Below, in pieces: positions 27,362 through 30,482 of a stretch of DNA of 64,000 nt. The first letter of the stretch is position 1. Every line of letters begins with the position of its first letter. The translations under genes were made by a program, and so were the position numbers. Source of the stretch: Xanthomonas bromi. Lineage in GTDB: Bacteria > Pseudomonadota > Gammaproteobacteria > Xanthomonadales > Xanthomonadaceae. The notes under the pieces are model-generated. The model saw only the letters and a program-made list of their open reading frames with translations, was not told the DNA's origin and did no database searches. Location of the stretch: assembly GCF_900092025.1 (NCBI RefSeq), contig NZ_FLTX01000039.1, positions 62,001-126,000 of the forward strand. Reading direction: 5' to 3'.

Positions 27362-29056
27362 TTACGAGGCCAGTGCCTGCTCGTGCACCCCTGCAATCGC
27401 GCGGCCCGATGGGTCGGCCATTGCGGCAAAACTCGCATCCCAGGCAATCGCCGTCGGCGAGGAACACGCAATCGACTTGCCGCCAGGCACCGTTTCTGCT
27501 GCTGCCTGGCTTGGGAAAAACTGCTCGAACAAGGTGCGATAGAAATAGGCCTCCTTGGTCTGCGGCGGGTTGACCGGGTAGCGTCGGTCGGCGGCGGCGA
27601 GTTCACGGTCGCTCACGTTCGCTGCGGCATGCGCCTTCAGCCCGTCGATCCAGCCATAGCCGACGCCGTCGCTAAACTGCTCTTTCTGACGCCACAGGAT
27701 CGATTCGGGCAGATAGCCGGAAAATGCTTCGCGCAGCACGCCCTTTTCCATGCGCGCGGCGCCGCTGCTGGTCTTGTCGATCATCTTGAAACGAGCGTCC
27801 ATGTGCATCGCCACGTCGAGGAATTCGCGATCCAGGAACGGCACACGCGGCTCCACGCCCCAGGCCATCATCGACTTGTTCGCGCGCAGGCAATCGTAGT
27901 TGTTGAGCGCGTCGAGCTTGCGCACCAGCTCTTCGTGGAATTCGCGCGCGTTCGGCGCCTTGTGGAAATACAGGTAGCCACCGAAGATTTCATCGCTGCC
28001 CTCGCCGGAGAGCACCATCTTGACGCCCATCGCCTTGATCCGCCGTGCCAGCAAAAACATCGGTGTGGAGGCGCGAATGGTCGTGACGTCGTAGGTTTCG
28101 ATGTGGCGAATGACGTCGGGCAACGCATCCAGACCTTCTTCGAAGGTGTATTCGAAGCCGTGGTGCACGGTACCCAGCGCTGCTGCGGCCACCTCCGCCG
28201 CAGCCAGGTCGGGCGAGCCTTTCAAGCCGATCGCGAACGAGTGCAAGCGCGGCCACCAGGCTTCGGTGGTGTCGTTTTCTTCGATGCGGTGACGGGCGTA
28301 GCGCGCGGCGACGGCCGCGACCAACGAAGAATCCAATCCACCCGACAACAGCACGCCATACGGCACGTCGGTCATCAGCTGACGATGCACCGCACGCTCG
28401 AAGGCTTCGCGCAATTCCTGCAGTTCCACCTGCACGCCTTCCACCTCGCCATAGTCGCGCCAGGCGCGTTCGTAGTAACGGCTCAGTACACCGGTGGCGC
28501 TGTCGTACCAATGGCCCGGCGGAAACTGCGCGGCATCGGCGCAATGGTCCACCAGCGATTTCAACTCCGAGGCCACCCGCAGCCGCCCTTCGCGGTCGTG
28601 GCCCCAGTACAGCGGCACCACGCCGATCGGATCGCGCGCGATGATCACCCGCCCGGCGGCCTTGTCCCACAGCGCGAACGCGAAGATGCCGTTGAGGCGG
28701 TTGAGATACGAAGCCGGCGCATCCTCGCGGTACAGCGCATTGATCACTTCGCAATCGGAGGCGGTCTGGAACGCGTACGGCTGCAGCAGCTCGGCCTTGA
28801 GTTCGCGATGGTTATAGATCTCGCCATTGACCGCCAGCGCGAGTTGCCCGTCTTCGGACAGCAACGGCTGCGAACCGCCGGCCGGGTCGACGATGGCCAG
28901 GCGCTCGTGCACCAGGATGGCCCCGGCATCGACGTACACGCCGCTCCAGTCGGGCCCGCGATGGCGCTGCCGCTGCGAACATTCCAGCGCCTGCCGGCGC
29001 AATGCCCGCAGGTCGTCACCGGGTTGCAGGCCGAAAATACCGAAGATGGAACACAT
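27362..29056 (-). CDS. asnB: Asparagine synthetase B (glutamine-hydrolysing)
   Basis: A 564-residue class-II amidotransferase. Met-Cys (MCSIFGIF) exposes the nucleophilic Cys2 of the glutaminase domain (residues 1-200; RHRGPDWSGVY, VNGEIYNHREL, FAFALWD). The synthetase domain has the PP-loop LLSGGLDSSLVAA and SGEGSDEIFGGYLYFHKAPN. It makes asparagine from aspartate, glutamine and ATP in the cytoplasm. AGGAG lies 8 nt before ATG. Upstream lie an intrinsic terminator (29128-29159) and an Asn-rich 29-codon ORF, the arrangement of a transcription attenuator, so expression probably rises when charged tRNA-Asn falls. Separated from dapE by 295 bp. Confidence 0.95.
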   Translation of the reverse strand: MCSIFGIFGLQPGDDLRALRRQALECSQRQRHRGPDWSGVYVDAGAILVHERLAIVDPAGGSQPLLSEDGQLALAVNGEIYNHRELKAELLQPYAFQTASDCEVINALYREDAPASYLNRLNGIFAFALWDKAAGRVIIARDPIGVVPLYWGHDREGRLRVASELKSLVDHCADAAQFPPGHWYDSATGVLSRYYERAWRDYGEVEGVQVELQELREAFERAVHRQLMTDVPYGVLLSGGLDSSLVAAVAARYARHRIEENDTTEAWWPRLHSFAIGLKGSPDLAAAEVAAAALGTVHHGFEYTFEEGLDALPDVIRHIETYDVTTIRASTPMFLLARRIKAMGVKMVLSGEGSDEIFGGYLYFHKAPNAREFHEELVRKLDALNNYDCLRANKSMMAWGVEPRVPFLDREFLDVAMHMDARFKMIDKTSSGAARMEKGVLREAFSGYLPESILWRQKEQFSDGVGYGWIDGLKAHAAANVSDRELAAADRRYPVNPPQTKEAYFYRTLFEQFFPSQAAAETVPGGKSIACSSPTAIAWDASFAAMADPSGRAIAGVHEQALAS

Positions 29057-29127
29057 GGAAACACTCCTGAAGAACTGCGGGGGTTGGCGGCCGGTGAAAT
29101 AGCGTGCTGCACGGAAATGACACCCAT

Positions 29128-29159
29128 AAAAAAAACCCGCATCGGCCGATGCGGGTTTT
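29128..29159 (-). terminator. Intrinsic terminator in the asnB leader (attenuator)
   Basis: A perfect 28-bp palindrome (29132-29159; arms AAAACCCGCATC with a central GGCC) is followed on the minus strand by eight U (29135-29128). It ends 72 nt before asnB and about 30 nt after the leader ORF stop. It could simply end dapE transcription, but its 5' arm can alternatively pair with the upstream segment 29199-29211. Confidence 0.9.
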
Positions 29160-29211
29160 CTGATTCCTGGGCGTTTGGTGTACTTCGCCTAGTCGCAGAC
29201 CCGCAGCGGCC
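29144..29211 (-). promoter_or_regulatory. Proposed antiterminator of the asnB attenuator
   Basis: On the minus strand, segment 2 (29211-29199, GGCCGCTGCGGGT) lies within the last codons of the leader ORF. It is complementary at 12 of 13 positions to segment 3 (29156-29144, ACCCGCATCGGCC), the 5' arm of the terminator. Segment 4, the 3' arm (GGCCGATGCGGGT), is a 12/13 copy of segment 2. So 2:3 and 3:4 pairing exclude each other. A ribosome stalled on the Asn codons just upstream would leave segment 2 free and favour antitermination. Confidence 0.75.
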
Positions 29212-29278
29212 GCGCACGATTATTGGCGCGCAGGTTGTTGCGGTTGGCGTTATTGAGGTTGGCGAGTCGAATGACCAT
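29189..29278 (-). CDS. Asparagine-rich leader peptide of asnB
   Basis: A 29-codon ORF (ATG at 29278, TAG at 29191-29189). The sequence starts MVIRLANLNNANRNNLRANN and ends in RVCD. Asn occurs at residues 7, 9, 10, 12, 14, 15, 19 and 20, that is 8 of 14 consecutive residues, while Asn is otherwise uncommon here. The only in-frame start is this ATG (an in-frame stop lies 27 nt upstream). No good Shine-Dalgarno is seen; a weak TTGCGT/TTAGCT promoter would start transcription almost at the ATG, so a nearly leaderless message is conceivable. Its role would be to sense Asn-tRNA charging for the attenuator; the peptide itself probably has no function. Confidence 0.8.
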   Translation of the reverse strand: MVIRLANLNNANRNNLRANNRARPLRVCD

Positions 29279-29351
29279 GCGACCGAAGCTAACCGTTCGG
29301 TTTCACCGACGCAACTGTTTCAGCGGCAACGACAGCGTGTGCGTTGTCCGC

Positions 29352-30482
29352 TCACCCGACCAGCAAGCGCTCGATCAGCGTGCGATACAGCGCTGGCAGT
29401 GCTTGTAGATCGGCCACGCGCACATGCTCGTCGACCTGATGGATGCTGGCATTGACCGGGCCGACTTCGATGCATTGCGCGCCCAGCGGTGCAATGAAGC
29501 GCGCATCGGAAGTGCCGCCACCAGTGCTCTCTTCCGGCGGCGCACCGGCGAACTCGCCCAACACCTCACGCGCGACGCTGCGCAACCGCCCTTCCGGGGT
29601 GTAGAACGGCTCGCCGCTGCGATGCCAGCGCAGCGCGTAGTCCAGCGCATGCCGATCGAGCAGTGCGGTGATTTCGGCCTCCAGCCGCGGCGCATCCCAA
29701 TGCGGGGTGTAGCGCAGATTGAACGCCACCTGCAGCTCGCCGGGAATCACGTTGTTGGCGCCGGTGCCGGCATGGATGTTGGAAAGTTGCAGGCTGGTCG
29801 GCGGGAAGCTTTCGAAGCCGTCGTCCCATTGCCGCGCGACCAATTCAGCCAGCGCAGGCGCTGCCAGATGGATCGGGTTGCGCGCCTTGTGCGGGTACGC
29901 CACATGCCCCTGCACACCCTTGACGATCAGCGTGCCGGACAAGCTGCCGCGACGGCCGACGCGCAACAGATCGCCCAAGCGCTCGGTGGACGACGGCTCG
30001 CCGGTGATGCACCAGTCGATCGTCTGCCCGCGTTCGCGAAACAGGTCTGCGACTCGGCGCACGCCATCGATGGCATCGCCCTCCTCGTCCGAAGTCAGCA
30101 ACACTGCCAGCGTGCCGGTATGCGTGGGATGCGCGGCAACGAACTGCTCGGCGGCGACAACGAACGCGGCCACGCTGCCTTTCATGTCGGCCGTGCCGCG
30201 CCCGTACAACACGCCATCGCGGATCTGCGGTGCGAACGGATCGCTGGTCCACGCCTCGCGCGGACCGGGCGGCACCACGTCGGTATGCCCGAGTAACACC
30301 AACACCGGTGCACCGCTGCCGTGCGTGGCCCACAGATTGTCGACATCCCCCAGGCGCAGGTGTTCGCAGGCGAAGCCTGCGGCAGTCAAGCGCTCTGCAA
30401 GCAGTGCCTGGCAGCCGGCATCGTCGGGCGTGACCGACGCACGGGCGAGCAGATCGCAGGTCAACTCCAGCACATCGTTCAT
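29352..30482 (-). CDS. dapE: Succinyl-diaminopimelate desuccinylase
   Basis: A 376-residue M20-family dizinc hydrolase. Zinc ligands: His66 in [11 protein letters not shown], Asp99 in [10 protein letters not shown], and the DEEGDA motif with the catalytic Glu near residue 132; later GEPSS and the C-terminal His in [10 protein letters not shown]. The dimerisation lid (residues about 180-290) is present. It converts N-succinyl-LL-diaminopimelate to LL-DAP for lysine and peptidoglycan. dapD lies 1.3 kb upstream on the same strand. Confidence 0.95.

Follow-up and report, generated by a model that had tools for sequence, protein, structure and literature searches.

Transcription attenuators governed by the translation of a leader peptide are known for several amino acids, and those of the his, trp, leu and thr leaders follow the same logic as the one proposed here for asnB. 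Vitreschak and colleagues reportedly made a comparative study of attenuators in proteobacteria in 2004. In the Firmicutes, asnB and asnS are under T-box control, in which the charging of tRNA-Asn is sensed and acts through antitermination. The classical features of the attenuator class, i.e., a codon run, competing segments and a terminator, are also described in the accessible part of PMC2659441. According to the accessible part of PMC8632094, the uORFC-8-2 motif found before cysS in Rhodobacterales is a predicted amino-acid-specific uORF attenuator, and attenuator leader ORFs on leaderless RNAs are described, in the portions available of the two papers, for trpL/rnTrpL of Sinorhizobium meliloti (PMC7298713) and for the ilvBNC leader of Corynebacterium glutamicum (PMC11857589). 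The literature searched covered asparagine and asnB, attenuators and leaderless mRNAs, with most subscription journals outside its coverage, and among the papers listed from it there was neither an Asn leader peptide nor an asnB attenuator, which agrees with the statement of an earlier sequence-only reading of this DNA that it knew of no described Asn leader peptide for asnB.

The window, a stretch of 64,000 nucleotides from Xanthomonas bromi, carries on its minus strand what is, judging from sequence comparison and modelling, very probably a ribosome-mediated, Asn-specific and probably leaderless transcription attenuator for asnB, sensing charged tRNA-Asn. The gene under its putative control, asnB (27362-29056, minus strand), encodes a glutamine-hydrolysing asparagine synthase (NF006949, 865 bits against a cut-off of 499), and its upstream neighbour on the same strand is dapE (29352-30482; TIGR01246, 549 bits). 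Between the two lies a 29-codon, probably leaderless ORF (29278-29189, minus strand), identified by direct reading and by its conservation, whose translation is MVIRLANLNNANRNNLRANNRARPLRVCD. Its eight Asn residues (7, 9, 10, 12, 14, 15, 19 and 20) all fall within residues 7-20, so that, as in the attenuator class, the leader has a run of codons for the amino acid made by the downstream gene; direct reading found the coordinates and codon counts of the sequence-only reading to be correct and confirmed that an Asn-rich ORF and a terminator precede asnB. When 167 asnB-upstream stretches were dinucleotide-shuffled 40 times each and short ATG ORFs were counted, at least 4 Asn in 14 residues occurred in 97 of the 6680 shuffles, at least 5 in 12 and 8 in none. 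The asnB leader is the one place in the genome with the codon pattern NNxNxNN, and this count alone proves little because the reversed pattern, taken as a control, also occurs once. A known leader-peptide family was considered and rejected, as four leader peptides tried against Pfam and NCBIfam had no match at E values up to 1.

The stem of an intrinsic terminator (29159-29128, minus strand) starts 29 nt past the leader stop codon, between the leader ORF and asnB as is usual for attenuators, and is evident from the sequence, from RNAfold and from relatives. It is composed of AAAACCCGCATC-GGCC-GATGCGGGTTTT, a 12-bp perfect stem with a 4-nt loop, and includes a T8 tract at 29135-29128, in which four of the eight T are paired with the AAAA of the stem; the perfect stem and U8 reported earlier could be read directly at these positions. 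The end of the leader ORF holds segment 2, GGCCGCTGCGGGT (29199-29211, minus strand), the 5' arm of the antiterminator. This is a 12/13 copy of the terminator 3' arm GGCCGATGCGGGT (segment 4, 29135-29147, minus strand) and is 12/13 complementary to ACCCGCATCGGCC (segment 3, 29144-29156, minus strand), which consists of the terminator 5' arm and the loop and may pair with either segment 2 or segment 4, the GGCC loop being common to segments 3 and 4. Since the antiterminator uses the terminator 5' arm, the 2:3 and 3:4 pairings are mutually exclusive, as in the known attenuators, and this part of the earlier proposal is borne out by the sequence. The 1:2 pairing suggested at the same time (ACCTGC with GCGGGT) did not appear in RNAfold; instead, CCGCA within the Asn run (segment 1, 29239-29243, minus strand) pairs with TGCGG of segment 2 in both the MFE and the centroid structure, and an 8-bp hairpin CTGCGCGC/GTGCGCGG (29210-29233, minus strand) is predicted inside this pairing. 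The RNAfold structure of 29126-29300 contains the terminator and the 1:2 structure, with a z-score of -2.34, and 2 of 200 shuffles fold equally well. An automated scan of the window region called no terminator and no sigma-70 promoter; the terminator was presumably missed because a perfect palindrome leaves a loop outside the scan range, and the promoter because its hexamers match weakly. Translational control was rejected, since the hairpin ends about 60 nt ahead of the asnB Shine-Dalgarno sequence (AGGAG, 29064-29068, minus strand) and the T8 tract is present.

The influence of a translating ribosome on these helices was modelled with the nascent transcript of the window, in which the RNA extended to the end of segment 3 and was masked as far as 13 nt beyond the A-site codon's first base. 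The model leaves 11-12 pairs of 2:3 with codons 1-19 in the A site, 8.2 with codon 20, 6.0 with codon 21, 2.3 with codon 22 and none from codon 23 onwards, which puts the switch point of the window between codons 20 and 23. With 8-12 pairs left, every one of the eight Asn codons (7-20) falls on the antitermination side, and codons 23-29 fall on the termination side, so that, as expected of an attenuator, a modelled stalled ribosome frees the antiterminator arm and a ribosome at the stop codon covers it. The geometry was also modelled in 90 loci, namely the detail set of 66 loci defined below and 24 of 28 newer leader loci (L114, L117, L120 and L125 were excluded). With the ribosome waiting at an Asn codon, 2:3 keeps half or more of its maximal pairing for 568 of their 590 Asn codons. 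The zero 2:3 pairing seen here with a ribosome at the stop codon is a consequence of the footprint assumed. The last Asn codon tracks the switch point (sd of the difference 1.99 codons, against 6.75 for its own position), but this does not single out the switch because the stop codon is tracked about equally well (sd 2.03). In the full-length transcript, 3:4 at -49.2 kcal/mol is favoured by 3.6 kcal/mol over forced 2:3 at -45.6 kcal/mol; the switch must therefore be kinetic, with segment 2 meeting segment 3 before segment 4 exists.

In the proposed mechanism, transcription would most likely start at the leader ATG or within about one base of it, and translation would begin from a 5'-terminal AUG. 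With ample Asn-tRNA, the ribosome would pass codon 22, proceed to the stop codon and cover segment 2, on which 3:4 would pair and transcription would end at the T tract. With scarce Asn-tRNA, the ribosome would wait at one of the eight Asn codons and leave segment 2 free, which could then pair with segment 3 before segment 4 is made, and the polymerase would read into asnB. With no ribosome on the leader, 1:2 and 3:4 would form and transcription would stop; it counts against the scheme that, with a ribosome at codon 1 of the nascent chain, 2:3 still wins in the model though 1:2 is free to form.

The distribution of the element was followed through AsnB relatives, for which the best 80 of at least 590 from named genomes, together with 30 loci from 41 relatives, were taken and their upstream regions screened for Asn-rich ORFs. 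Sixty-six loci formed the detail set; 25 Xanthomonas loci were kept for detail and two copies left out. Excluded from the 66 were L095 and L104 (copies of L001 and L002), L016, L025 and L041 (AsnB 74-80% identical, no leader), and L043-L055, L057-L064, L066-L080 and L108-L110. In none of this last group does an ORF with at least 3 Asn stand ahead of a T-tailed hairpin, and five of its members (L051, L068, L071, L078 and L079) have 4 Asn within 14 residues of a short ORF. Absence of the Asn run or of the competing stem from close relatives had been named beforehand as refuting the attenuator reading; the reading passed this test, all 25 Xanthomonas loci having both the Asn run and the terminator hairpin. 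The arrangement was also found in loci named Stenotrophomonas, Pseudoxanthomonas, Luteimonas, Thermomonas, Lysobacter, Dyella, Rhodanobacter and others, with leaders of 20-44 residues, of which those of L013, L020, L056 and L137 have 3 Asn. The records of L016, L025 and L041, in which asnB lacks the Asn leader, are named Holophagales, Rhodococcus and Deltaproteobacteria, and mis-binning, contamination or transfer are candidate readings of their AsnB, 74-80% identical to that of the window.

In an unselected draw of 111 genomes across the order, 64 had an AsnB at an E value no worse than 1e-150, and each of these was screened upstream of asnB (over about 325 nt in the case of L161). Asn-rich leaders were present in 16 of the 17 genomes of the window's own family (f1; exception G115), in 12 of 13 in family f12 (exception G091; that of G134 is weak, with 3 Asn), in 3 of 3 in f2, and in 1 of 31 in all other families. 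The f12 family is probably Rhodanobacteraceae, to judge from peptides near-identical to those of named Rhodanobacter and Dyella loci. The AsnB proteins of the two exceptions, G091 (L145) and G115 (L146), are more divergent (66% and 64%) and their genes lack the leader, as if the gene had been replaced. The one case outside these families, L144 (G106, family f7), has in its positions 1-665 a divergent Asn-rich leader and a terminator before asnB and is apparently not leaderless. Its leader MFAIYNTINTTNNRLLRSAGSF contains 4 Asn (2 of 40 shuffles reach as many) and is followed by AAAAGCCCGCTTCAAAAGCGGGCTTTTTTTT directly ahead of asnB, and it is possibly an independent or an older copy.

Two other readings were weighed. 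The hairpin might be the terminator of dapE and the Asn-rich ORF a chance frame in its 3' flank; indeed, dapE ends some 190 nt ahead of the terminator on this strand, and its transcripts might be stopped there as well. Yet in 27 of the 66 loci no dapE is present in the fetched flank (which is shorter than 0.9 kb in three of them, L008, L033 and L040), and the Asn ORF and the hairpin are still found with asnB, which shows that the element belongs to asnB. With a run of at least 5 Asn in 14 residues in 12 of 6680 shuffles, and a promoter-like element between dapE and the leader, this explanation is extremely improbable; it was rejected on the 27 loci and the shuffles. The terminated leader RNA or its peptide might alternatively act mainly in trans, with the control of asnB secondary. 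Leaderless attenuator RNAs can do so, as the accessible part of PMC7298713 describes for rnTrpL/peTrpL of Sinorhizobium. However, apart from the Asn run and the structured part, the peptide varies strongly between genera, and we hold a main role in trans to be highly unlikely; our loci were found through asnB, and copies elsewhere were sought with one pattern, in the genome of the window. Control of the adjacent asnB in cis by the attenuator is the reading we keep.

The pairings of this attenuator were compared among relatives in an alignment of 21 Xanthomonadaceae-type sequences (A1). The 3:4 helix is paired in 97.2% of the cells, with three pairs changed on both sides; three double-changed pairs were reached by 9 of 500 shuffles and the covariation score by none of 500. 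For 2:3, 86.8% of the cells are paired, as compared to 26.9-55.3% if the arms are slid by 1-3 columns. Two of its pairs are changed on both sides, a number matched or exceeded in 172 of 500 shuffles, and its covariation score is reached by 3 of 500. The 1:2 structure (89.3% of cells paired; 96.1% for segment 1 with TGCGG and 85.1% for the 8-bp hairpin) has zero compensatory changes and is for this reason the weakest part. A second alignment of 17 sequences has segment 2 as GGYGGGCC in register in 10 rows and segment 3 as GGCCCGCC in most. We relied for 2:3 on a test with full arms in 42 of the 66 loci, hand-picked to thin near copies. Its mean z was -2.65, and at least 190 of 200 shuffles gave a poorer duplex in 28 loci, as against about 2 expected; the excess over shuffles was not significant in the other 14 (L007, L012, L022, L028, L029, L030, L032, L034, L035, L036, L037, L039, L042 and L107). 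With shortened arms, at most 3 of 60 shuffles were as good in 38 of the 66 loci by duplex and in 44 of 66 by base-pair sum. The hairpin is present in 90 of 90 loci when a tail is not required, and a T-rich tail follows it in 63 of 66 by script and also in L011; the hairpin of L028 and L030 has no clear T tract after it, and in some other loci the tract is interrupted. Some covariation is thus seen in both alternative helices. Taken with the conservation of the Asn run and the hairpin and with the modelled geometry, this supports the attenuator interpretation given earlier.

The DNA ahead of the leader has a promoter-like layout. A -35-like element, TTGCGT (29309-29314, minus strand), is followed after a 17-nt spacer by a -10-like element, TAGCTT (29286-29291, minus strand), which matches 3/6 of TATAAT and lies 7 nt before the ATG. 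The fair count of this spacing is over 38 loci (17 Xanthomonas and 21 others) in which a single in-frame ATG lies 21 or more codons ahead of the stop, because 27 of the 66 loci have several in-frame ATGs and their starts were chosen partly by promoter score; the leader of L039 has a start codon other than ATG and no ATG in frame. In all 38 of these, the start of TTGC is 35-37 nt ahead of the leader ATG; at the asnB ATG of the same loci, as a control, it is in place in 2 of 38. A T is found at -7/-8 in 37 of 38, and in Xanthomonas and relatives the -10-like hexamer, ending in T, stands 6-8 nt before the leader ATG. Hexamers with 4/6 of TATAAT are not enriched in Xanthomonas and are present in 13 of the 41 other loci. 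No Shine-Dalgarno match of at least 4 nt precedes the leader ATG in any of the 25 Xanthomonas loci, and asnB has a 5-nt match in all 25; among the 41 non-Xanthomonas loci, the leader has no match in 28, a 4-nt match in 11 and a 5-nt match in 2. A second TTGC (29326-29329, minus strand) precedes the -35 TTGC by 15 nt, a spacing that is kept exactly in 32 of 66 loci, and in several Xanthomonadaceae the region reads like GTTGCnnnnGmAACnGTTGC (29329-29311 in the window); it is possibly an operator or an upstream element.

The TTGC spacing in 38 of 38 loci makes the leader probably leaderless, and it fits a transcription start at the leader ATG; the weak -10 hexamers count against this. The same Asn attenuator might nevertheless be transcribed from further upstream or from dapE, with the leader translated from a 5' UTR, for which speak the Shine-Dalgarno matches in 13 of the 41 non-Xanthomonas loci, the weak -10 matches, the lack of a sigma-70 site in the automated scan, and L144, whose -10-like hexamer 25 nt before the ATG points to a short 5' UTR there. 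We regard this as rather unlikely in view of the TTGC in all 38 loci with one candidate ATG, of the absent leader Shine-Dalgarno in Xanthomonas, and of a like spacing in other leaders of the family. The thr and ilv leaders, which a search with short peptides located in 5 and 8 of 30 genomes (that of the window among them), lie before an aspartokinase gene and near an acetolactate synthase gene, and TTGACA stands 36-37 nt before an in-frame ATG in 13 of 13. That ATG is the single candidate in five of them (L180, L184, L186, L188 and L189) and one of two to four in the other eight. The own-genome leaders of thr and ilv are at L175 380-547 and L177 1504-1663 (minus strand). By this spacing, they too look leaderless. 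With moderate confidence, Asn attenuation may be seen as the ancestral control of asparagine synthesis in these families and as part of a wider Xanthomonadaceae design, in which the examined Asn, Thr and Ile/Val/Leu attenuators would all be leaderless.

The charging of tRNA-Asn reports asparagine most directly if AsnRS is used. All 26 Xanthomonas genomes drawn have asnS, the gene for AsnRS, and a search for asnA found it in 0 of 26. This fits what the attenuator logic requires, and no asparagine synthetase besides AsnB was found except for more distant AsnB-like proteins. A leader signal different from Asn-tRNA charging, such as the queuosine of tRNA-Asn, read through the many AAT codons, or a general slowdown of translation, would be consistent with the share of AAT among Asn codons, which is 207 of 438 in the 66 leaders versus 22 of 94 in five genes of the window. 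But one and the same leader position may carry AAC or AAT: among 23 of the 25 Xanthomonas leaders, codon 14 is AAC in 17 and AAT in 4, and codon 19 is AAC in 4 and AAT in 19. Moreover, the controlled gene makes asparagine, and the low G+C of the Asn run may serve to keep it unstructured, so another signal is very unlikely and the charging of tRNA-Asn remains the preferred one. As a further control, a script searched the kilobase upstream of hisG for a his attenuator and found no ORF with at least 6 His in 14 residues. A small ORF upstream of hisG (L176 624-950), with ttaatgtactaacacgctattacattaac before it, looks like what we take to be a TrpR-type repressor, and his may here be repressor-controlled rather than attenuated.

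The element does not correspond to a known Rfam family, and this candidate was rejected, since neither the window region nor any of 12 relatives scored at the gathering threshold of any family. The closest amino-acid leader in the window was Leu_leader (RF00512; 25.7 bits, gathering score 50), and Thr_leader (RF00506) scored 21.3 against 55; no T-box was among the 18 Rfam matches up to E 5 in 28900-29500. The mechanism class is old, and what is probably new is asparagine as the sensed amino acid, the unusual feature being the probable leaderless start. If this holds, asparagine would join the amino acids for which leader-peptide attenuation is known, and the control of asnB without a T-box would be explained in a group including many plant-associated bacteria. 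The RNA would start with the leader AUG and the ribosome would load once the 5' end emerges, making leaderless initiation part of the sensor; the layout of the promoters points to leaderless mRNAs as the carriers of attenuation in this family, and this bears on how early the ribosome must load.

As compared to the his, trp, leu, thr and ilv attenuators of Proteobacteria, the asnB leader has in common the codon run for the product amino acid, the competing segments, the intrinsic terminator and the biosynthetic gene downstream, and it differs in its Asn codons, in asnB as the gene and in probably having no 5' UTR. It shares with the T-box the presumed sensing of tRNA-Asn charging, the asparagine genes and antitermination, but the T-box binds the tRNA directly, whereas here a ribosome on the Asn-rich ORF would read it. 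The uORFC-8-2 motif, as far as its description was available, likewise stands outside the classical attenuator set, and unlike the asnB leader it has two Cys codons, precedes a tRNA synthetase gene and belongs to Alphaproteobacteria. The S. meliloti trpL and C. glutamicum ilvBNC leaders, likened to the asnB leader from the accessible parts of their descriptions, concern other amino acids in another class or phylum. Similar in layout are the family's thr and ilv leaders, those of this genome included, in which TTGACA takes the place, 36-37 nt before the ATG, that TTGC has in the Asn leader, and which differ in their codon runs for Thr/Ile and Val/Leu/Ile.
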